Positions 1,741-10,648 of a stretch of 33,775 bases of DNA are shown one piece after another. Below the pieces are notes generated by a model. It ran no database searches, had not been told where the DNA came from, and saw only the letters and a program-made list of their open reading frames with translations. The translations under genes and the position numbers were made by a program. Every line of letters begins with the position of its first letter. Positions within the stretch are counted from its first letter, which is position 1. This DNA comes from Archangium sp. (lineage in GTDB: Bacteria; Myxococcota; Myxococcia; Myxococcales; Myxococcaceae). The stretch lies in the NCBI GenBank assembly GCA_030695565.1, contig JAUYRZ010000023.1, positions 1 through 33,775 on the forward strand, read 5' to 3'.

Positions 1741-2097
1741 TCACTTCCAGTTCGACATCGCGCCGAGGTCGACCACCCGGGAGAAGCCGGCCTCCTCGAG
1801 GATCTTCCTGGCAGCGGCGCTGCGCCGGCCGCTCTGGCAGTACACCACGATGGGCTGGTCCTTCTTCGCAGAGACCTGGGCCAGATTGGTCTTCAGCTCA
1901 CCGACGGGCACATTCACCGCGCCCTCGAGGTGACCGGCGGCGAACTCACCGGTGGTTCTCACGTCGAGCAACACGGCCCCCTGTTTCACCAGCGTGCGGG
2001 CTTCGTCGGCGGTGACGGTGGGCCCGCCGGTGCCGAGGAAAAGGAACGCGGCCCCTACGAGCACCGCACCAGAGAGCAACTTTTGTACGTTGGACAT
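1741..2097 (-). CDS. Membrane-anchored single-domain rhodanese
   Basis: This 118-aa protein has an N-terminal signal or membrane anchor (about residues 6-24, [17 protein letters not shown]) followed by one rhodanese domain: [22 protein letters not shown], then the active-site loop CQSGRRS with nucleophile Cys87, and a C-terminal [12 protein letters not shown]. Rhodaneses carry persulfide on this Cys and transfer sulfane sulfur to acceptors such as sulfite, glutathione or cyanide. The anchor suggests a periplasmic or membrane-associated enzyme, unlike the soluble rhodanese at 2996-3268. It lies 31 nt downstream of the persulfide-dioxygenase-like gene on the same strand and is probably co-transcribed. 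ATG 2097 was chosen because the longer frame has a low-complexity, Arg-rich non-homologous extension. Confidence 0.88.
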
Positions 2098-2128
2098 GTG
2101 CGTGAGAGCCGCACGGCGCGCGCAAGGT

Positions 2129-2983
2129 TCAGAGCCCGGAGACGGGCGTCTTGAGGAAACGCCGCCCACCCTGCTCAGGCGCAGGCAGCCGCCCGGCGGC
2201 GATGTTCACCTGCAGCGACGGGTAGAGCAGCCGGGGCGCGCTCAAGGTGCGGTCCCGGGCGGTGCGCCGCGCCACGAAGTCTTCCTTCGGCGTGGCGACG
2301 CTCAGCTGCACGTTGCCGCGTTTCGCTTCGCCCACCGTGGTCGAGGCTTTCCACCCGCGGCCAGCAGGCGGGTAGTCGTGGCCCACGAAGAGCCGGGTCG
2401 ACTCGGGCAGGCTGAACAGTCTGCCGGCCACCGAGTCGTAGAGCGCGCCCGCGTCGCCCCGGGGAAAGTCACAACGACCCACCCCGACGTCGTCGAGGAA
2501 CAACGCGTCACCCGTGAAGACCGCGTCACCGACCTGGTAGCTCACGCAGGCCGGGGTGTGGCCCGGCGTGGGAATGGTCTTCAGCACGAGCGACCCTGCC
2601 TGAACGAGCTCGTCATCTTCGAGCAGCCGGTCGAACTGCCGGCCGTCGGCGGGAAAGTCGGGCCACGAGAACACGTCCTTGAAGACCGCCTGGACCTCGG
2701 TGATGCGGTGGCCCACCGCGACCTGCGCGCCGAAGCGTCGTTTGAGCCACTGGCTTCCCGAGAGATGATCGGCGTGCGCGTGCGTCTCGAGCATCCAGTG
2801 CACCTCGAGCTCGTGCGCCTCGACGAAGGCCGCCACCCGCTCGACCGACTCGGTCCACACCTTGCCGCTGCCGGGCTCGTAGTCGAGCACCGGGTCGATG
2901 ATCACCGCGTCACGCGTGGCTTCGTCGAACACCACGTGGGTGAGGGTCGAGGTGCGCTCGTCGAAGAACGTTTCAATCTGCAT
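2129..2983 (-). CDS. MBL-fold metallo-hydrolase, persulfide dioxygenase-like (ETHE1/BLH type)
   Basis: This 284-aa protein of the metallo-beta-lactamase fold has the metal motif THAHADH (His68, His70, Asp72, His73), a later GHTPACVSY histidine, the GDALF aspartate and the GHDYPP histidine. These fit the mononuclear-iron persulfide dioxygenase branch, which oxidises glutathione persulfide to sulfite. The C-terminus (LYPSLQVNIAAGRLPAPE) resembles the bacterial BLH type found in BigR-controlled sulfide-detoxification operons. It sits between two rhodaneses and opposite a sulfite-exporter-family gene, which supports a role in sulfide or persulfide detoxification. AAAGGAG lies 7 nt upstream of ATG 2983. 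The gap to the upstream rhodanese is 12 nt, indicating one operon. Biochemical substrate is inferred. Confidence 0.85.
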   Translation of the reverse strand: MQIETFFDERTSTLTHVVFDEATRDAVIIDPVLDYEPGSGKVWTESVERVAAFVEAHELEVHWMLETHAHADHLSGSQWLKRRFGAQVAVGHRITEVQAVFKDVFSWPDFPADGRQFDRLLEDDELVQAGSLVLKTIPTPGHTPACVSYQVGDAVFTGDALFLDDVGVGRCDFPRGDAGALYDSVAGRLFSLPESTRLFVGHDYPPAGRGWKASTTVGEAKRGNVQLSVATPKEDFVARRTARDRTLSAPRLLYPSLQVNIAAGRLPAPEQGGRRFLKTPVSGL

Positions 2984-2995
2984 GACCGTCTCCTT

Positions 2996-3268
2996 TCACC
3001 ACGCCTGCATGGGGCCGATGTCTCGCACCGCGTACCCGGCTTGCGTGAGCAGCTGTCTGGCCAACGCGCTCCGGCCGCCGCTGCGGCAGTAGACGACGAT
3101 GGGCCGGCTGACGGGGCCGACCTCGTGCAACCGCGAAGGGAGCTCCTGCACGGGGATGTTCTGCGCGTTGGCCAGGTGCCCTTCGCAGAACTCGGCAGGG
3201 GTTCGAACGTCGAGCAGCAGCGCTCCCTGCTCGACGAGTTGGCGGTGGTGGGATCCTTCGAGCTTCAT
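2996..3268 (-). CDS. Cytoplasmic single-domain rhodanese
   Basis: This 90-aa protein is a complete small rhodanese domain without signal peptide. It contains LLLDVRTPAEFCEGHLANAQ, the active-site loop CRSGGRS with nucleophile Cys61, and the terminal YAVRDIGPMQAW. It is likely to move sulfane sulfur in the cytoplasm, for example between persulfide, sulfite and thiosulfate, next to the dioxygenase it precedes. ATG 3268 is preceded by AAAGG with 8-nt spacing. The longer frame back to 3316 lacks a ribosome site and overlaps the palindromic intergenic region. It is the first gene of the three-gene sulfur operon and is transcribed away from the TauE-family gene. Confidence 0.88.
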   Translation of the reverse strand: MKLEGSHHRQLVEQGALLLDVRTPAEFCEGHLANAQNIPVQELPSRLHEVGPVSRPIVVYCRSGGRSALARQLLTQAGYAVRDIGPMQAW

Positions 3269-3304
3269 GGGTGTTGCCTTTCGTTCGTGCTGCGAGGTTC
3301 GAAA

Positions 3305-3318
3305 GGTTGGAGCCAACC
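3305..3318. promoter_or_regulatory. Perfect inverted repeat GGTTGG-AG-CCAACC in the divergent rhodanese/TauE spacer
   Basis: Two 6-bp arms separated by 2 bp lie near the middle of the 104-bp spacer between the divergent rhodanese operon and the TauE-family gene. The palindrome is also flanked by a looser pair, GGTTCGAAAG at about 3296 and CTTTGAACC at about 3334. Position and symmetry fit a repressor or activator site shared by both directions, as in BigR/SqrR-controlled sulfur operons. No regulator gene of that type is in the window, so the binding protein is unknown. Confidence 0.4.
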
Positions 3319-3337
3319 GTGCGCCAGAGGATTCTTT

Positions 3338-3363
3338 GAACCGAACCCGCGCGCTCCCGGCTC
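3338..3363 (+). promoter_or_regulatory. Putative ECF-type promoter GAACC-N16-GGCTC upstream of the TauE-family gene
   Basis: GAACC at 3338-3342 and GGCTC at 3359-3363 are separated by exactly 16 bp, the same pair and spacing as before the YeiH-family gene at 4978. The spacers share the block AACCCGCG, offset by 1 nt, and both downstream stretches contain GCTCC just before the ATG. The GAACC resembles the AAC-containing -35 element of ECF sigma factors. If GGCTC is a -10 element, the transcript would begin at or next to ATG 3373, making it leaderless; no Shine-Dalgarno is visible there. Confidence 0.45.
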
Positions 3364-3372
3364 TCGCTCCAC

Positions 3373-4098
3373 ATGGTCAGCTTCCTTGCGGGTCTCGCTC
3401 TTGGCCTCGTGCTCTCCGTGCTCGGCGCCGGTGGCGGCATCATCGCCGTGCCCGTGCTGGTGCTGCTCTACGAGCTCCCCCTGGGGGCCGCGATCGGCAG
3501 CGGGCTGGCCGTGGTCTTCGCCGCCGCAACCCCCGCAGCGCTCGCGCACGCCAAAGCCGGGAGAGTCGACCTGCGCACGGTGTTGCTCTTCGGCCCGCCT
3601 TCGATGCTCGGCGCGGTGCTGGGCACGAAGCTCAACGCGCTGGTGCCCGAGCGCGTCACCTCCGCGCTCTTCGCCCTGGTGCTCGTGCTGGCCACCGCCT
3701 CACTCTTCTTTCCCCGAAAGCCGGAGGGCCGCCCCACCCCGAAGCCGGTGTTGGTGGTGGTGGGCCTCCTCCTGGGTGTGTTGACCGGCTTCCTGGGCGT
3801 GGGCGGCGGGTTTCTCCTGGTGCCGGCGTTGGTGGGGCTCGCGCAGTTGCCGCTTCACCGGGCCGTCGGCACCTCGACCGCGCTCATCGCCGCCAGCAGC
3901 TTCTCGGGCGCTGCGACGGCCGTGGTGCGCGACCCCTCGAACCTGGGCCTGGTGCTCCCCATCGCCGCGGGGGCGGTGGCCGGGGCGTTGTTGGGCGCGC
4001 CGCTCGCGGGCCGGCTTCAGCCCGGGCCGCTCCGTGCGGCGTTCACCTCGTTGGCCGTGGTGGTGGCCGGCGTGATGGCCTGGAAGGCGCTCGGGTGA
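3373..4098 (+). CDS. TauE/SafE-family sulfite/anion exporter
   Basis: This 241-aa integral membrane protein has about eight hydrophobic helices in two homologous halves. Each half carries the family's glycine-rich signature: LGAGGGIIAVPVLVLLY at about 17-33 and LGVGGGFLLVPALVGLAQ at about 140-157, followed by AVGTSTALIAASSF. TauE/SafE proteins export sulfite or sulfoacetate and related organosulfur anions. The divergently transcribed rhodanese and dioxygenase genes would generate sulfite, which suggests it exports that product. It is transcribed from a probable promoter shared in sequence with the second exporter gene. No ribosome-binding site is evident. The stop lies 9 bp from the convergent sigma-factor stop. 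Confidence 0.88.
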   Translation: MVSFLAGLALGLVLSVLGAGGGIIAVPVLVLLYELPLGAAIGSGLAVVFAAATPAALAHAKAGRVDLRTVLLFGPPSMLGAVLGTKLNALVPERVTSALFALVLVLATASLFFPRKPEGRPTPKPVLVVVGLLLGVLTGFLGVGGGFLLVPALVGLAQLPLHRAVGTSTALIAASSFSGAATAVVRDPSNLGLVLPIAAGAVAGALLGAPLAGRLQPGPLRAAFTSLAVVVAGVMAWKALG

Positions 4099-4107
4099 GG
4101 GCCGGCT

Positions 4108-4908
4108 TCACGCCGCAGACAGGCGCAGCGCCTGACGCACGGCCGCGCGCACCGCGGCGGGCACCTCGCCCCCGGGAATGGCGCGGCACATCGAGACCGT
4201 GCGCTTGAGCGAGTCGCACGCGGCGGTGCAGCGGACACACCCGGAGAGGTGGGCCTCGATGCGGGCACACGCGGCCTGGTCGATCTCCGAGGCCGCGTAG
4301 GCCGCCAGCTCGGTCTGGAGCTCAGGGCAGCCGAGGTCGGACGACTGGTGCTCCAGCACGCTGGCGAGGCTTTGTTTGAGCTGCAGGCGCGCCCGGTGGA
4401 GCCGGCTCTTGAGCGCGCCGACTTCGATGCCCACCACCTCGGCGGCGTCTTCGGCCGACAGACCTTCGACGTCGCGCAAGACGAGCACCTCCCGCTGCTC
4501 TTGCGGCAACGTGCTCATCGCGGCCTGAATCACCTGGCCCACCTCACGCGCGTGCGCCGCGGCGTCGGGCGCGCTGGCGTCGGCGGCCAGCGCCTTCACT
4601 TCGTGCACCTCCATCGACTCGAGCCGTTCGGGCTCACCTTCGCGGCGGCGGCGCTGCTTGATGCAGAAGCTGCGCGCGACCTGGTACAGCCAGGTGGACA
4701 GGCGCGCGTCACCCCGAAACGTGGCGAGGTTCCTGAACGCCGACAAGAGGGTCTCCTGCAGCACGTCGCGGGCGTCGTCTTCGTTGCCGCACATGCGCAG
4801 GCCGAAGCGGTAGATCTGCTGCTCATGCCGGGCGAGGAGCTGGTCCATCGCGAGCGCATCGCCCTTCTTCACGCGCTCGACGAGCTCGGCATCGGTCACT
4901 TCAGGCAT
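4108..4908 (-). CDS. ECF RNA polymerase sigma factor with C-terminal cysteine-rich zinc-finger domain (CorE-like architecture)
   Basis: This 266-aa protein has sigma region 2 at about residues 20-92 (ARHEQQIYRFGLRMCGNEDDARDVLQET, then TWLYQVARSFC) and region 4 at about 125-180 (LPQEQREVLVLRDVEGLSAEDAAEVVG, then KSRLHRARLQL). About 80 further residues hold cysteines 194, 214, 224, 227, 231 and 241. They include His220-x3-Cys224-x2-Cys227, the zinc signature normally found in a separate anti-sigma protein. No anti-sigma gene lies nearby. Sigma factors with a fused cysteine-rich tail are known from Myxococcus CorE, where metal binding directly switches activity. By analogy the tail may sense metal, redox state or reactive sulfur. 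ATG 4908 precedes the conserved region by a normal length. It is flanked by two exporters whose upstream sequences match. Confidence 0.88.
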   Translation of the reverse strand: MPEVTDAELVERVKKGDALAMDQLLARHEQQIYRFGLRMCGNEDDARDVLQETLLSAFRNLATFRGDARLSTWLYQVARSFCIKQRRRREGEPERLESMEVHEVKALAADASAPDAAAHAREVGQVIQAAMSTLPQEQREVLVLRDVEGLSAEDAAEVVGIEVGALKSRLHRARLQLKQSLASVLEHQSSDLGCPELQTELAAYAASEIDQAACARIEAHLSGCVRCTAACDSLKRTVSMCRAIPGGEVPAAVRAAVRQALRLSAA

Positions 4909-4943
4909 GCCCCAAGGTAGCTCGCCCCCGCTGCACTTGCTCG

Positions 4944-4969
4944 GAACCCAAACCCGCGGAGCCTGGCTC
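4944..4969 (+). promoter_or_regulatory. Putative ECF-type promoter GAACC-N16-GGCTC upstream of the YeiH-family gene
   Basis: GAACC at 4944-4948 and GGCTC at 4965-4969, 16 bp apart, repeat the arrangement upstream of the TauE-family gene, with the shared spacer block AACCCGCG. The downstream element is also half of a small palindrome, GGAGCC-T-GGCTCC (4958-4970). The ATG at 4978 follows only 8 nt later, so an mRNA from this promoter would be nearly or fully leaderless. It lies in the 69-bp spacer divergent from the sigma-factor gene. Confidence 0.45.
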
Positions 4970-4977
4970 CCAGCTCC

Positions 4978-5919
4978 ATGCTTCATCGCGTCGTCTTCTT
5001 CGCGCTCGCCGCGTTGACCCTCACCCCCTGGGTCAGCGCGCCCCTGGCCCTGGTCGCGGGGGCCGTCTTCGCGCTGATCGCAGGCAACCCCTTCCCGAAG
5101 CAGACCGCCCGGGCGCAGGCCTGGCTGCTGCAGGGTTCGGTGGTGGGGCTGGGCGCGGCCATGAACCTCGAGGTGATTCTGAGCGTGGGCGCGTCGGGGG
5201 TGCTGCAGACGGCGCTCACCCTCGGCCTGACCTTGACGCTCGCGTGGGGGCTCTCGCGCGCGTTCCGGGTCGAGCCGGTGTCCGCGCTCCTCATCGGGGT
5301 GGGTACGGCCATCTGTGGCGGGAGCGCGATCGCTGCAGTCGCCCCTGTCATCGGCGCCAGGCCCCAGCAGACCAGCGTCGCGCTCGCGGTGGTGTTCGTG
5401 CTCAATGCGGTGGCCCTGGTGCTCTTCCCCGCGCTGGGCCAGCTGTTCGCCCTCAGCCCTGCTGCTTTCGGGCTGTGGAGCGCGCTGGCGATTCACGACA
5501 CCAGCTCGGTGGTGGGCGCTTCGCTTCAGTTCGGTGGCGAGGCGCTGGCCGTCGGCACCACGGTCAAGTTGACGCGCGCGTTGTGGATCATTCCGCTGAC
5601 TCTCGTGTTGGCCCGCGTCTGGCCGCGCAGCGAGGCGACGGGGCAGGGCACGAAGCGGCCGTGGTTCATCCTGGGGTTCCTCGCCGTGGCCGCGCTCGTC
5701 ACCTGGGTGCCCGCGCTCCAGGCGCCCGGCCGGGTCGTCGCCGCGGTGAGCCGGCAGGTGCTGGTGTTGACGCTCTTTCTGGTGGGGGCCGGCGTGTCGA
5801 GAGAAGCCGTGCGCGCCCTCGGGGTGAGGCCTTTGGTGCTCGGCGTCTCGTTGTGGCTGGTGGTCGCCTCGGCCAGCCTCGCCGCGGTGAAGCTCGGCTG
5901 GCTCGTGCCGCCACTCTGA
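4978..5919 (+). CDS. YeiH/UPF0324-family putative sulfate/sulfite exporter
   Basis: This 313-aa protein has about ten transmembrane helices and the family hallmarks LLQGSVVGLGAAMNL (about 50-64), LIGVGTAICGGSAIAA (about 104-119), SALAIHDTSSVVGAS (about 168-182) and VKLTRALWIIPLTL. UPF0324 proteins are annotated as sulfate exporters; in enterobacteria yeiH is adjacent to yeiE, a regulator of the sulfite response. This fits the neighbouring sulfite-generating genes. It is divergent from the ECF sigma factor and shares a probable promoter with the TauE-family gene. ATG 4978 gives a full-length N-terminus. Substrate is inferred from family and context. Confidence 0.88.
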   Translation: MLHRVVFFALAALTLTPWVSAPLALVAGAVFALIAGNPFPKQTARAQAWLLQGSVVGLGAAMNLEVILSVGASGVLQTALTLGLTLTLAWGLSRAFRVEPVSALLIGVGTAICGGSAIAAVAPVIGARPQQTSVALAVVFVLNAVALVLFPALGQLFALSPAAFGLWSALAIHDTSSVVGASLQFGGEALAVGTTVKLTRALWIIPLTLVLARVWPRSEATGQGTKRPWFILGFLAVAALVTWVPALQAPGRVVAAVSRQVLVLTLFLVGAGVSREAVRALGVRPLVLGVSLWLVVASASLAAVKLGWLVPPL

Positions 5920-5957
5920 AATGAATCCAGGCGTCGGGCGTGAGCTCGTCGCGTTTG

Positions 5958-7379
5958 CTACTCCTCGCGCGCGCGCGAAGACGACAGGCCGTGTCTGCGG
6001 AGCAGGTCGTGGAAGTCGGTGCGGTTGCGCCCCGCCAGCCGCGCGGCGGCGGCCACCACGCCATCACTGCGGCGCAGCGCCTCCAGCAGGTACGCGCGGG
6101 CAAAGGCGTCCCTGGCCTCCTTCAAGGGCGGCAACGGCACCGTCGGCGCGTGTTGCCAGCCGGGCGCTTCAGCCGGAGCCCGCGGCGGCGTCGGAGCGGC
6201 TGGCGCGGCCGCAGGCAACACGGAACGCACGTCGTCGGCCTCGAGCACCTCGCGCCGGGTGAGCAGGGCGGCGCCTTCCATCACGTTGGCCAGCTCGCGC
6301 ACGTTGCCCGGCCACGCATGCGCCGAGAGCAACGCCATCGCCTCACGCGAAAGCGCAGGCGGGTCGATGCCGTGCCGCGCTGCGCACCGCACCAGGAAGA
6401 GGCGCGCCAACAAGGGCACGTCGCCTTTGCGCTCCCGGAGCGGCGGCATGGTCACCGGCACCACGTGCAGCCGATAGAAGAGGTCTTCGCGGAACCGGCC
6501 TTGCGCCACCTCGGCCCGCAGGTCGCGGTTGGTGGCCGCCACCACGCGCACGTCGGCCGCTTCTTCTGACGTCGCGCCGACCGGGGTGAAGCGCTGCTCC
6601 TGCAGCACCCGAAGCAGCTTCACCTGCACCGCTGGCGGCGCGTCACCCACTTCGTCGAGAAACAAGGTGCCGCCCTTGGCCGCGGCGAACACGCCCTCCT
6701 TGTCGCGGGTGGCCCCGGTGAAGGCGCCCTTCAGGTGGCCGAAGAGCTCGCTCTCCAGTAGCTCGCCAGGCAACGCGCCGCAGTTGACCGCCACGAAGGG
6801 CCCACCGGCACGATGCGAGCGGGCGTGGAGCGTGCGCGCGGCGAGCTCCTTGCCGGTGCCCGACTCGCCCAGGAGGAGCACGGTCGCGTCGGTCGGTGCG
6901 ACCCGCGCGAGCGCCTCGCGCACCCGGTGAATCGGCTCGCTGGTGCCCACCAGGCCCGAGCTCTCCTGATCGACCAGGCGCCGCAGCCCGGCCAGCTCCC
7001 GTTTGAGCCGGGCGCTCTCCACGCCGTGCGCCAGCTTCTCCATCAGCTCGTGATCGTGGAACGGCTTGGTGAGGAAGCCGTACGCGCCGCGGGCCATCGC
7101 CTCGACGGCCGACTCGATGCTGCCGTGCGCGGTGAGGATGATGACCGGCACCTCGAGGGCGCGCGCCTTCACTGCCGCGAGCACCTCCATGCCCGAGCCC
7201 TGCTCCAGCTGGAGGTCGACCACCATCGCGTCGACCAGCTCGCTGTCGAGCAGCTCGAGACCTCGGGCCACCGTCTGCGCGGTGGTGACCCGGTAACCGT
7301 GAAACTCCAACCGCAACGCGAGCAGCTCACACATCTCGGGTTCGTCATCGATGATGACGACGTGGGCTTCGTGACTCAT
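5958..7379 (-). CDS. NtrC-family sigma-54-dependent response regulator (GlrR-like)
   Basis: This 473-aa protein has the standard three-domain layout. The receiver domain (about 5-120) has acidic pocket IIDDEPEM, phospho-acceptor Asp55 and Lys105. The AAA+ domain (about 143-375) has Walker A GESGTGKE (171-178), the sigma-54 contact motif GAFTGA (218-223) and GGTLFLDEVGD. A C-terminal Fis-type helix-turn-helix follows a Pro/Ala-rich linker. The intact GAFTGA indicates a genuine sigma-54 activator. Its ATG overlaps the stop of the upstream kinase by 4 nt, so the kinase is its partner. Likely targets include the divergent sulP promoter region, which holds palindromes. ATG 7379 is supported by that overlap rather than the longer frame. 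Confidence 0.92.
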   Translation of the reverse strand: MSHEAHVVIIDDEPEMCELLALRLEFHGYRVTTAQTVARGLELLDSELVDAMVVDLQLEQGSGMEVLAAVKARALEVPVIILTAHGSIESAVEAMARGAYGFLTKPFHDHELMEKLAHGVESARLKRELAGLRRLVDQESSGLVGTSEPIHRVREALARVAPTDATVLLLGESGTGKELAARTLHARSHRAGGPFVAVNCGALPGELLESELFGHLKGAFTGATRDKEGVFAAAKGGTLFLDEVGDAPPAVQVKLLRVLQEQRFTPVGATSEEAADVRVVAATNRDLRAEVAQGRFREDLFYRLHVVPVTMPPLRERKGDVPLLARLFLVRCAARHGIDPPALSREAMALLSAHAWPGNVRELANVMEGAALLTRREVLEADDVRSVLPAAAPAAPTPPRAPAEAPGWQHAPTVPLPPLKEARDAFARAYLLEALRRSDGVVAAAARLAGRNRTDFHDLLRRHGLSSSRAREE

Positions 7380-8854
7380 GCTTCTCCCGCGCGTCTTCCC
7401 GGCGCCATCGACAGGGGCATCCACAAGACGAAGGTGGCGCCGGGGCCTTCGCTGTCACTCAGCTCGAGATCGCCCTGGTGCGCACGCGCCACCTCGCGCG
7501 CCAACGCCAGGCCCAGGCCCACGCCGACCCCTTTGGGGCTGCCGTCGACGGCCTGGGTGACGAAGGCCTCGAAGACCGAATCGCGAATCTGCGGGGGCAA
7601 CCCCGGCCCTTCGTCGCGCACCGTCACCACCGCGACGGGTGGTTGGCCCAACGTGGCGCGCACGGTGCGGCCCACCCGCACTTTTTGACCCCGCCGGCTG
7701 ACGCCCAGGGCGTTGCGCACCAGGTTCGAGACCGCGCGCTCCAGCATCGCTTGATCAAGGGAGGCCCGCGGCACGTCACCTTCGATGGTCACCTCCAGCT
7801 CGACGCCGGCCTCCTTCGCTTCGTCGAGATGCGCTTCACAGGCTTCTCGCACCGCGTCGTCGAGCATCGCGCCCGCCTGGAATTGCACCGGAGCGCCCGC
7901 TCGCAGCCTCGAGAGATCGAGCAAGGTGGTGACGGTGCGAATCTCGCGCTCGCAGTTGCGGCTGGCGATGTCGAGCAGGCGCTGCTGTTTGCCGGTGACC
8001 GGGCCGGCCACGCCCTCCTTGAGCAGGGCCAGCGCTTCGCGCAGCTTCGACAAGGGGGTCCTCAGCTCGTGCGAGACCGAAGCGAGGAAGCTCTGCTTGA
8101 GCGTGTCCAGCTCGGCGAGGCGCGCGCGCATCTTGTCGAGCTCGAAGGCCAGTTGCTGCACCTCGAGGGGACCTTCGATGCGCTCTTCTCGGGTGAAGTC
8201 ACCCCGGCCCACGCGGTGCGCCACGCGCTCCAGCTCGCCCAGCGGCTCGGTGACCAGCTTCGCCAGCCGCCGCGCGATCAACACGCCCAGGAAGAGCGCG
8301 AGCAGCGCGCTCGCCAGCCCCACCGCCACCGCCGCGGTGCCCACCCTGCGCGCTTCTTCGTCTTTCTGGGTGACCGCGGAGTGCAGCCCACTCATGCCGT
8401 CGACCCACGCGTCGGTCAGCTGCTCATCGAGCGCCCAGCGTCGCTCCAGGTTCTCTTGCGAGCGCAGCCCTTCGCACACGTCGGGTGCGGCCAGCACGGC
8501 CTCGGCCAGCGTGACGTAGTCGTGGGCGATCGCCCGGATGCTGGGGAAACGGGGCGTCTGAGGGAGCGCGAGCAGCTCTCGCAACGCCGCGGTGCGCGCC
8601 GCCAGCGTCTGGCCCATCGTGCCGGCCGGTTGCCCCGCCTGACACCGTTGCAGGCCGTGACGCATGGCCACCTCGATGCCCCAGCCCCCCCGATGCATCG
8701 CTTCGCCCGCCAGCAACGAGCCCAGCTCCTGCTCCCGCACCTCGGAGAGCAAGACGGTCATGCGCACCAACGAGACGAGCATCACGCCCAGGGCAAGGCC
8801 CATCACCAGCACGGGCATCGCGTGCGACAGCAGCAGCCGGGTCAGCAGGCGCAT
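7376..8854 (-). CDS. Membrane sensor histidine kinase with HAMP domain, partner of the NtrC-type regulator
   Basis: This 492-aa protein has transmembrane helix 1 at about residues 10-32 and a periplasmic helical sensor region (about 33-170) including two cysteines (71, 127). Helix 2 is at about 173-196, with HAMP at about 195-248. HisKA carries SHELRTP with phospho-acceptor His262. The ATPase domain has the N box around Asn381, DEGPGLP (414-420) and GVGVGLGLAL. The layout resembles GlrK/QseE-type kinases that work with GlrR-like regulators. It is the first gene of a two-gene operon, reading away from sulP across a 132-bp spacer. The signal is unknown. Confidence 0.9.
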   Translation of the reverse strand: MRLLTRLLLSHAMPVLVMGLALGVMLVSLVRMTVLLSEVREQELGSLLAGEAMHRGGWGIEVAMRHGLQRCQAGQPAGTMGQTLAARTAALRELLALPQTPRFPSIRAIAHDYVTLAEAVLAAPDVCEGLRSQENLERRWALDEQLTDAWVDGMSGLHSAVTQKDEEARRVGTAAVAVGLASALLALFLGVLIARRLAKLVTEPLGELERVAHRVGRGDFTREERIEGPLEVQQLAFELDKMRARLAELDTLKQSFLASVSHELRTPLSKLREALALLKEGVAGPVTGKQQRLLDIASRNCEREIRTVTTLLDLSRLRAGAPVQFQAGAMLDDAVREACEAHLDEAKEAGVELEVTIEGDVPRASLDQAMLERAVSNLVRNALGVSRRGQKVRVGRTVRATLGQPPVAVVTVRDEGPGLPPQIRDSVFEAFVTQAVDGSPKGVGVGLGLALAREVARAHQGDLELSDSEGPGATFVLWMPLSMAPGRRAGEA

Positions 8855-8909
8855 CGGGGCCCTCCGCGGTCTGAAATCTCCGACCCTGTCGGGAAATCCC
8901 GTCGGTCAG

Positions 8910-8929
8910 GCGTTGGCATTTCCCAACGC
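8910..8929. promoter_or_regulatory. Inverted repeat GCGTTGG-N6-CCAACGC in the kinase/sulP spacer, possible activator site
   Basis: Perfect 7-bp arms (8910-8916 and 8923-8929) separated by 6 bp lie 57 bp upstream of the sulP ATG. A second symmetric element, CGGGA-AA-TCCCG, lies at 8890-8901. The centres are about 24 bp apart. Dyads of this size upstream of a gene and beside an NtrC-type activator operon are typical of enhancer-binding-protein sites, but no strong sigma-54 promoter was recognised, so binding is inference. Confidence 0.4.
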
Positions 8930-8986
8930 TCGTGGTGCGCCGAACGCAACTCCGATTGGCCCGCTGCTTGTAGAGCGAGGGCCGTC

Positions 8987-10648
8987 ATGCAGGCAGTGAC
9001 GGTCACCTGGAGCGAAGCAGCGCGCGACACCCTGGGCTCCTGGAAGGACCTGCGACGGGGAGCGCCCCAGAACGTGATGGCGGGGGTGACGGTGGCCTTC
9101 GTGGCGCTGCCGCTCAACCTCGCCCTGGCGATGGCGTGCGGGCTGCCGCCGGCGGCGGGCATCGTCACGGGGATCCTTGCGGGGGTGCTGGCGGGCATGT
9201 TCGGCGGCGCGAAGTTGCAAATCAGCGGCCCGGAGGTCGCCCTCGCTCCGCTCACCTACGAAATCGTCAGCCGCCACGGGGTGAAGGGGCTGATGGCGGC
9301 CACCTTCTTCGCGGGCCTGTGCCAGCTGGTCTTCGGCGCCTTGCGGCTGGGGCGGGTGGTGCAGGCGATTCCCCGGCCGGTGGTGGGCGGCTTTCTCACC
9401 GCGGTCGGCGTGCTGGTGCTCGACGCTCAGCTGCCGCGGTTGCTGGGCCTGCCGGCCGACGTGCGGTTGATCTCCGCGGTCGCGCCGCACGACGTGTTGA
9501 TGCGCGCCGACTGGTTGTCGGTGGTGCTCGGCCTGGCGGTCATCGTGTGCTTCGTGGTGTTGCCCAGGCTGCACCCGCGTGCGCCGGGGGCGTTGGTGGG
9601 GCTGGCGGTGGTGGCGAGCGCCGTGGCCTTGATGCAGGTCTCGTTGCCGACGGTGGGTTCGGTCGCCGTCGAAGGGCTGCGCGTGGTGTTGCCGGCATTC
9701 GGCGAGGTCGACCTCACGGCGCTGCTGCCCGAGGCCATCGCGCTGGCGCTGCTCGCGTCGATCGACACGTTGATGAGCGCGGTGAGCATCGACTCGGTGG
9801 TGAAGGGCCCCAAACACCGGGCCGACCAGGAGCTGCTGGCACAGGGGTGCGCCAACCTGGTGAGCAGCCTGGTGGGGGGCATGCCCGTCGCGGGCGCGGT
9901 GGTGCGCTCGATGGCTGCCGTGCAGGCCGGCGCGACCACCCGGCTGGCCAGCGTGTCGCACGCCGGGGCGCTGCTGTTGATGCTGCTGGTGGCGGCGCCG
10001 TTGGTGGCCCGGCTGCCGCTGGCGGGGCTCGCCGGAATTCTCGTGGTGGTGGGCGTACGGCTCATCAACGTGAAGGACTTCGTCTTCATCTGGAAAAGCT
10101 CACGCTTCGAGGCGCTGGTCTTCGTGGTGACGGCCGTCTCGATTCTGGTCGGTGACTTCGTGGGCGGCGTCGCCACGGGCCTGGTGGTGTCGTTGCTTCA
10201 CTTCGCGGTGCAGCACAGCAACCTCGGCGTGCGCGCGCTCACGGTGAAGGCGGGCATTCACGCGACGGCGCTGGTCGAGATCCAGGGGCCGATCTTCTTC
10301 GCCTCGCATGGGCAGCTCGAGGGGTTGAACGGTCACGACGCGGCTCATCCGCTCCTGCTCGATCTGCGGCAGGTGCCCACGGTCGACCTGACCGGTGCCG
10401 ACGCGGTGCGCGGCCTGCTGCAACAACTCTCGGAGCGTTCAGTGCGCCTGGCCCTGGTGGCCAATCGCCCTGCCGTGACGGCCGCGCTGGTCGACGTCGG
10501 CGTCGCCGAGCTGCTGGCGGGCGGGCGCATCTACCCGACGGTGGATGAGGCGCTCGCGGCCCTGCAAGCCCAGCCCGCGGCCCGCCCCGCGCCGCCATCG
10601 TTTCAGTTGACGCGTGACGAGCAGAAAAATCAGGCGGGCGCGGCGTGA
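8987..10648 (+). CDS. SulP-family anion transporter with C-terminal STAS domain
   Basis: This 553-aa protein has the SulP membrane domain at about residues 25-420, with conserved segments NVMAGVTVAFVALPLNLALA, ISGPEVALAPLTYEI, PRPVVGGFLTAVGVLV and ALLASIDTLMSAVSIDSV. A shortened STAS domain follows (about 425-530; VEIQGPIFFASHGQLEGL, LLLDLRQVPTVDLTGADAV), the regulatory domain that binds nucleotide or protein partners. The family carries sulfate, bicarbonate or dicarboxylates; the substrate cannot be read from the sequence. The local sulfur gene set favours sulfate but does not prove it. ATG 8987 has GCGAGG about 7 nt upstream. The C-terminal 25 residues are Pro/Ala-rich. A small membrane-protein gene follows after 31 bp. 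Confidence 0.9.
   Translation: MQAVTVTWSEAARDTLGSWKDLRRGAPQNVMAGVTVAFVALPLNLALAMACGLPPAAGIVTGILAGVLAGMFGGAKLQISGPEVALAPLTYEIVSRHGVKGLMAATFFAGLCQLVFGALRLGRVVQAIPRPVVGGFLTAVGVLVLDAQLPRLLGLPADVRLISAVAPHDVLMRADWLSVVLGLAVIVCFVVLPRLHPRAPGALVGLAVVASAVALMQVSLPTVGSVAVEGLRVVLPAFGEVDLTALLPEAIALALLASIDTLMSAVSIDSVVKGPKHRADQELLAQGCANLVSSLVGGMPVAGAVVRSMAAVQAGATTRLASVSHAGALLLMLLVAAPLVARLPLAGLAGILVVVGVRLINVKDFVFIWKSSRFEALVFVVTAVSILVGDFVGGVATGLVVSLLHFAVQHSNLGVRALTVKAGIHATALVEIQGPIFFASHGQLEGLNGHDAAHPLLLDLRQVPTVDLTGADAVRGLLQQLSERSVRLALVANRPAVTAALVDVGVAELLAGGRIYPTVDEALAALQAQPAARPAPPSFQLTRDEQKNQAGAA

Follow-up and report, generated by a model that had tools for sequence, protein, structure and literature searches.

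What connects two exporter genes that stand on either side of an extracytoplasmic function (ECF) sigma factor gene and begin behind the same short sequence element? This question is raised by a stretch of 33,775 nucleotides (nt) of Archangium sp. (contig JAUYRZ010000023.1), referred to here in its full length as the window, in which the element GAACC-N16-GGCTC precedes a TauE-family gene and a YeiH-family gene. The initial annotation explained it as the promoter of a two-target regulon of the intervening sigma factor, transcribed into leaderless mRNAs. Judged from sequence comparison, the motif is an ECF-type promoter used across myxobacteria to switch on reactive-sulfur detoxification genes. 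Very probably, the intervening ECF factor transcribes this detoxification regulon through the repeated promoter; it would be self-inhibited and freed by reactive sulfur or by thiol oxidation.

Both elements are present upstream of the two genes, as first described. The tauE site, GAACCGAACCCGCGCGCTCCCGGCTC, occupies positions 3338-3363 of the plus strand, with the ATG of TauE at 3373, 9 nt further on, and the yeiH site, GAACCCAAACCCGCGGAGCCTGGCTC, lies at 4944-4969 on the same strand, with the ATG of YeiH at 4978, 8 nt further on. In total, the window holds four sites (3338+, 4944+, 3334- and 2130-). The additional site at 3334-3310 on the minus strand has GAATC and a 15-nt spacer and serves a rhodanese gene and then a sulfur dioxygenase gene, while that at 2130-2106, also on the minus strand, has GAACC with the same spacer length, overlaps the end of the dioxygenase gene and serves a second rhodanese. 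At least two further credible sites are found elsewhere in the genome of the window (G000). One (C26:95598) precedes a gene that joins a cysteine-rich protein, MCRQTRCEKCGK..., to a YgaP-like membrane domain, and the other (C55:32098) the gene of a membrane protein of 90 residues carrying CPVCVVATPALVG; both gene types bear the motif in relatives too. With these sites, and with many sulfur families under the motif across the order, the regulon is larger than the two targets first proposed.

Taken alone, the exact pattern is weak evidence. Genome-wide searches were made by pattern matching, and exact GAACC-N16-GGCTC gave 16 matches in the 8.5-Mb genome of the window against 6 for the reversed control, which is near chance; within the window, matches with one mismatch are at chance level (5 vs 4.3 expected). 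The reversed pattern is biased as a control by codon usage (rare CTA/TAA), and the conclusions therefore lean on spacer-shift, position-shift and paralogue controls. The near-chance genome-wide count is what speaks for the resemblance of the two sites being a coincidence, an explanation refuted by order-wide enrichment, by the sulfur targets and by out-of-sample success, and left with a vanishingly small probability. Two finer resemblances had less to them. The AACCCGCG shared by the two spacers is conserved in no other sites; it was rejected as a functional element, and its sharing looks incidental. The GCTCC common to both sites before the ATG falls outside the consensus.

The comparison covered loci that carry an orthologue of YeiH or of the ECF sigma factor. 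They were taken from members of the same genus, of the same family and of the same order; these genomes are related, so that counts from them are not independent. Among the first 49 loci, GAA[CT]C-N15-18-GGCTC was matched about 33 times, mostly with a start codon following, compared with 3 matches of the reversed pattern. The 32 ECF-centred loci (514 kb), which were picked without regard to the motif, contain the GAA[CT]C/GGCTC pair 47 times at the two favoured spacers (20 at spacer 15, 27 at spacer 16), whereas other spacers from 4 to 40 gave a mean of 3.2 per spacer with a standard deviation of 2.2. In the 10 YeiH-centred loci, the counts were 2 at spacer 15 and 11 at spacer 16, against 0.2 per other spacer. 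The spacing peak is confined to 15-16. The motif is also kept upstream of orthologues in relatives, as expected from the first description, namely of tauE, in the same arrangement, in three genomes (G003, G004, G005) and of yeiH in two (G010, locus L004; G023, locus L011).

Across the 68 sites with a downstream gene, the upstream element is GAATC in 42 and GAACC in 26, and the spacer measures 16 nt in 42 and 15 nt in 26. After GGCTC comes T or C, which was imposed by selection, and then mostly CA, with this A in 60 of the 68. The consensus is GAA(T/C)C-N15/16-GGC-T(C/T)CA, also written GAAYC-N15/16-GGCTYCA. In other words, GAACC with a 16-nt spacer describes the first two sites correctly but not the general form, in which GAATC is commoner, N15 is also used and the -10 element extends to GGCTCTCA. 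Within the latter, T(C/T)CA is read as the putative -10 core, and on this reading the -35 and -10 elements would be about as far apart as in promoters of the E. coli sigmaE class. ECF factors recognise two-element promoters with a GAAC-like -35 and a short spacer, and the suggestion that GAACC resembles an ECF -35 element fits with the geometry of the motif and with its genomic linkage to this ECF lineage, which support an ECF-type promoter.

An operator, bound by a repressor or an activator such as a BigR/SqrR-like ArsR protein or a sigma54 activator, would be another way to explain a repeated upstream element. Known responses to sulfide and persulfide do act via BigR, SqrR, CstR or FisR (PMC5823870, PMC9774590), and an NtrC-type regulator adjoins yeiH. 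However, the half-elements are unlike each other, non-palindromic and oriented with the gene, and their rigid spacing of 15-16 is promoter geometry; moreover, the 8-9 nt to the ATG are often fixed, and an A is conserved three bases past GGCTC. An operator is thus very improbable.

The genes downstream of the putative promoters are overwhelmingly sulfur genes. Among 72 downstream proteins, scanned jointly, were 19 with a rhodanese domain, 8 OsmC proteins, 5 thioredoxins, 5 proteins with a YgaP-type membrane domain, 4 TauE proteins, 4 metallo-beta-lactamase (MBL) proteins of the dioxygenase kind, 3 YeiH and 2 Sulf_transp (YedE) proteins; single targets include a sulfite dehydrogenase, a coenzyme A (CoA)-disulfide reductase and an iron-sulfur subunit resembling TtrB/DsrO. 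For an out-of-sample test, 145 genomes of the order were searched with the pattern alone, and 20 matches of the consensus type (C or T after GGCTC and, with few exceptions, A two bases later) were compared with 20 that have A or G after GGCTC. About 14 of the 20 consensus-type matches head sulfur or already-seen families (rhodanese, CoA-disulfide reductase, YedE, TauE, thioredoxin-like, DUF302 and DUF6132), as opposed to 1 of 20 of the A/G type. One of the 20 (L253) lies close to an ECF orthologue.

Two small protein families were also observed under the motif. The first is a conserved membrane protein of 76-95 residues with CP(V/A/L/I)CVVATPALLG, which recurs behind the motif, often beside tauE or rhodanese genes (G000:C55:32098, that is L205:9296-9565 on the minus strand; L170:3533-3817; L173:2064-2333; L006:789-1052; L008:2873-3124; L224:1574-1801). 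The copy in the genome of the window has no match in Pfam or NCBIfam, and the protein would be a sulfur-regulon member of an uncharacterised kind. The second is a cysteine-rich family, MC(S/R)xxxCxxCGKPTWAGCGxHIxxxLAxVPxxxRCxC (L174:12794-12958, L182:8599-8763, L191:3179-3352, L192:9235-9390, L210:8704-8907 and G000:C26:95632), whose member in the genome of the window is the fusion with a YgaP-like membrane domain.

Which sigma factor would read these promoters? At 20 of 38 orthologue loci, there are sites between -1500 and +2300 nt relative to the ECF start, in comparison with 10.5% of same-size random windows elsewhere in those loci and with none of 6 ECF paralogue loci. In the 145 genomes, leaderless-type matches fall within 17 kb of an ECF orthologue on the same contig in 26 of 143 cases, against 0 of 68 for a displaced-ATG control (Fisher p = 2e-5, the genomes being related). 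Additionally, the motif heads apparent operons that contain the ECF gene, with the order OsmC-ECF in L181, L182, L192, L198 and L201 and thioredoxin-ECF in L174, and also in L210. It is divergent from the ECF gene at 60-210 nt in L178, L183, L185, L186, L187, L040, L042 and the window, where the yeiH promoter takes this position. Linkage to the orthologues and the shared operons make this ECF factor the best candidate for reading the motif. Genomes of genus g23, of 9.0-9.3 Mb, also encode the orthologue, at about 61% identity.

The protein itself belongs to the ECF class, as Sigma70_r2 (3e-15) and Sigma70_r4_2 (2e-16) score above their cut-offs, the linker is short and there is no sigma3. The earlier reading of the gene overlooked a fused anti-sigma domain (zf-HC2 in Pfam), which is the mechanistic core of the model. 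This zinc anti-sigma (ZAS) domain covers about residues 190-266, scores above the zf-HC2 cut-off and contains C194-X25-H220-X3-C224-X2-C227, plus C214 and C241; all of these residues are invariant among 32 orthologues. The arrangement Cys-X25-His-X3-Cys-X2-Cys includes the Hx3Cx2C signature of ZAS domains, preceded by a further Cys ligand, and is the geometry of the RsrA zinc site. Over residues 195-265, the family profile matches RsiW, an anti-sigma factor (1e-6), and in an AlphaFold2 model of moderate quality (mean predicted local distance difference test score, pLDDT, 80; predicted template modelling score 0.58; pLDDT of the tail domain about 58-79) the sigma part is closest to SigW from SigW/RsiW complexes. 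A natural counterpart is found in G023, which has no fused orthologue. There, within the same regulon, an unfused ECF factor (38% identical) overlaps by 14 nt, in one operon, a separate gene for an 86-residue protein with zf-HC2 (2.5e-14) and the same C-X25-H-X3-C-X2-C; the pair (L210:9529-10378) lies between two motif-driven genes, one of the YgaP type and one for OsmC. This fused and split pair argues that the C-terminal tail acts in cis as an anti-sigma factor.

Several observations weigh against this assignment, and some of them favour real sulfur-regulon promoters read by one or more different sigma factors, with the local ECF factor a mere neighbour or a member of the regulon. Nearly half of the orthologue loci (18 of 38, most of family f5 included) have no site near the ECF gene, and in some f5 genomes, perfect sites at other places drive rhodanese or CoA-disulfide reductase. 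Four genomes (G001, G004, G008, G010) have sites and no detectable orthologue, and myxobacterial genomes encode dozens of ECF paralogues. The relatedness of the genomes applies to all these counts. In the window, no clear site belongs to the ECF gene on its strand; the one candidate is the one-mismatch GAAGC at 4984, so autoregulation is not supported in this genome. This minus-strand match was rejected as the promoter of the ECF gene, being not above chance. Finally, the zinc of a ZAS domain may serve structure alone, as it does in RsiW (PMC7406223), and for this reason thiol sensing by the domain is not guaranteed. On the other hand, the linkage is specific to the lineage (0/6 paralogue vs 20/38 orthologue loci; 26/143 vs 0/68), the four genomes without an orthologue are fragmented metagenome-assembled genomes (about 940-1260 contigs), and the exception, G023, has a divergent ECF factor of the same type, with a split ZAS domain, in the same place. 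A different reader is thus improbable.

In one genome of the same genus (L031:5835-8223, which is L172), the two genes after the ECF gene look by eye like cydAB, encoding cytochrome bd oxidase; the motif was not found there. Cytochrome bd oxidase is a sulfide-tolerant enzyme.

The position of the start codon bears on the second part of the first proposal, the leaderless messages. The start codon follows GGCTC by exactly 8 or 9 nt at 30 sites out of the 68 (about 44%), by at least 20 nt at 31 and by 10-19 nt at only 4. By a permissive search, a Shine-Dalgarno sequence precedes the gene at 30 of the 31 long-leader sites, as against 8 of the 30 with 8-9 nt. The peak at 8-9 nt and the rarity of Shine-Dalgarno sequences there are what a transcription start 5-6 nt past TCTCA, on the A of the ATG, would lead one to expect, and messages of this class are likely to be leaderless. 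This would hold for tauE and yeiH, and probably also for the second rhodanese (8 nt). It does not extend to all targets, many of which have a leader and a Shine-Dalgarno sequence; for the first rhodanese, with a leader of 41 nt, the idea is not supported.

Taken together, the model would operate as follows. The sigma factor (4908-4108) would be held inactive by its own C-terminal zinc and cysteine anti-sigma domain of the RsrA/RsiW type, until the thiols of this domain are modified, most likely by persulfide or polysulfide or by disulfide stress, and sigma2 and sigma4 are freed. The holoenzyme would then read GAA(T/C)C as -35 and GGC-T(C/T)CA as -10, with transcription of tauE, yeiH and the second rhodanese beginning at the A of the ATG. 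Rhodanese and dioxygenase would turn the sulfur of persulfides into sulfite or thiosulfate, and the sulfite would be exported by TauE and YeiH. By analogy, persulfide or polysulfide is the likeliest inducer, because in its chemistry the regulon matches the bigR operon, which responds to sulfide and polysulfide. Disulfide stress is a possible inducer because OsmC, thioredoxin and CoA-disulfide reductase are among the targets. The regulon might accordingly answer general thiol, disulfide or electrophile stress, as SigR-RsrA does, with the sulfur genes as its most visible part; these targets, the thioredoxin-like ones and a ZAS site matching the RsrA geometry would fit. However, no other target family comes near rhodanese in frequency, and the dioxygenase, TauE, YeiH, YedE and sulfite dehydrogenase targets deal specifically with sulfane sulfur and sulfite; such a general response is less likely, but plausible. 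The most specific form of the preferred model, in which a one-component ECF factor with an RsrA-like switch senses persulfide or polysulfide directly, drives a largely leaderless regulon and is the first ECF factor dedicated to sulfane-sulfur stress, is put forward tentatively, with doubt slightly outweighing belief.

Table 1. Genes and predicted promoters of the sulfur-related region of the window.
Feature	Position	Strand	Basis or remark
TauE/SafE-family sulfite exporter	3373..4098	+	Pfam TauE 2e-48
YeiH-family putative sulfate/sulfite exporter	4978..5919	+	Pfam PF03601 2e-48; TIGR00698 1e-29, below its cut-off
Cytoplasmic single-domain rhodanese	2996..3268	-	Pfam Rhodanese
ETHE1/Blh-type sulfur (persulfide) dioxygenase, MBL fold	2129..2983	-	NCBIfam Blh
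Membrane- or periplasm-anchored rhodanese	1741..2097	-	Pfam Rhodanese; N-terminal hydrophobic stretch
ECF sigma factor (sigma2, sigma4) with C-terminal fused zf-HC2/ZAS domain	4108..4908	-	Pfam Sigma70_r2, r4_2, zf-HC2
Predicted tauE promoter, GAACC-N16-GGC-TCTCG	3338..3366	+	Start codon 9 nt past GGCTC, leaderless type
Predicted yeiH promoter, GAACC-N16-GGC-TCCCA	4944..4972	+	Start codon 8 nt past GGCTC, leaderless type
Predicted rhodanese/sulfur-dioxygenase operon promoter, GAATC-N15-GGC-TCCAA	3307..3334	-	Leader 41 nt
Predicted second-rhodanese promoter, GAACC-N15-GGC-TCTCA	2103..2130	-	Start codon 8 nt past GGCTC

The MBL protein of Table 1 matches the dioxygenase half of Blh (2e-97), below the cut-off set for the two-domain protein. 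Downstream of yeiH, positions 5958-10648 hold genes for a response regulator of the NtrC type, for a histidine kinase and for a SulP sulfate permease; they may form a second regulatory unit connected with sulfur, of the sigma54 type. The arrangement tauE-ECF-yeiH was not seen among the relatives examined, and a constant linkage of YeiH orthologues to the ECF gene was rejected, as the promoter moves with the genes.

These results suggest that an order of predatory soil bacteria runs sulfur stress via an ECF factor with a fused, cysteine-based off-switch. The consensus predicts dozens of sulfur genes, small uncharacterised proteins included, and the natural fused and split pair makes the self-inhibition model directly testable. 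Leaderless and leadered promoters under one sigma factor would also offer a clean setting for studies of leaderless translation.

Among known systems, the closest in chemistry is the bigR operon of Xylella and Agrobacterium, which likewise combines rhodanese, a Blh-type dioxygenase and TauE for the same detoxification and is controlled by a repressor in response to sulfide and polysulfide (PMC5823870). That repressor is a winged-helix protein with a redox disulfide, whereas a dedicated ECF promoter appears to be used here; in the present system, the sulfurtransferase and the dioxygenase have a gene each, and the regulon takes in more genes. No ArsR-type gene is among the nine genes scanned in 1741-10648, and no search was made over the rest of the genome. 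In the papers covered, reactive-sulfur control is exerted by the repressors CstR, SqrR and BigR and by the sigma54 activator FisR; FisR in Cupriavidus, CstR in Staphylococcus and SqrR in Rhodobacter give persulfide-responsive control of sulfide-oxidation genes (PMC9774590), and none of these three systems includes an ECF sigma factor.

C-terminal extensions of ECF factors have been described for CorE, ECF41 and ECF42 (PMC8999054, PMC8103513), and for the ECF52 factors of Streptomyces one study reports several domains, one of them a zinc finger (PMC5826349). CorE and CorE2 of Myxococcus xanthus (ECF44/ECF238) are controlled by a cysteine-containing C-terminal extension (PMC8999054), and the present protein is likewise a myxobacterial ECF factor with such an extension. 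CorE-like factors are marked by a CXC in the sigma2-sigma4 linker and by a cysteine-rich C-terminal domain that metal activation requires. In contrast, the linker of the present protein, GEPERLESMEVHEVKALAADASAPDAAAH, has no cysteine and hence no CXC, and the extension has a ZAS anti-sigma fold. In the literature, covered in part, no ECF factor or regulon for persulfide, sulfane sulfur or sulfite was found. The pieces, namely an ECF sigma factor, a ZAS anti-sigma domain and sulfide detoxification genes, are of known kinds, and their combination was not found described. The nearest mechanistic relatives are SigR-RsrA of Streptomyces and SigW-RsiW, in which an ECF factor with the same sigma domains is paired with a zinc anti-sigma factor (ZAS, or anti-sigma domain class I), and it is SigW/RsiW that the profile and the model of the present protein match. 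Unlike these pairs, the system described here has its anti-sigma domain fused to the sigma factor, and it is predicted to use other promoters and to centre its regulon on sulfane sulfur and sulfite.

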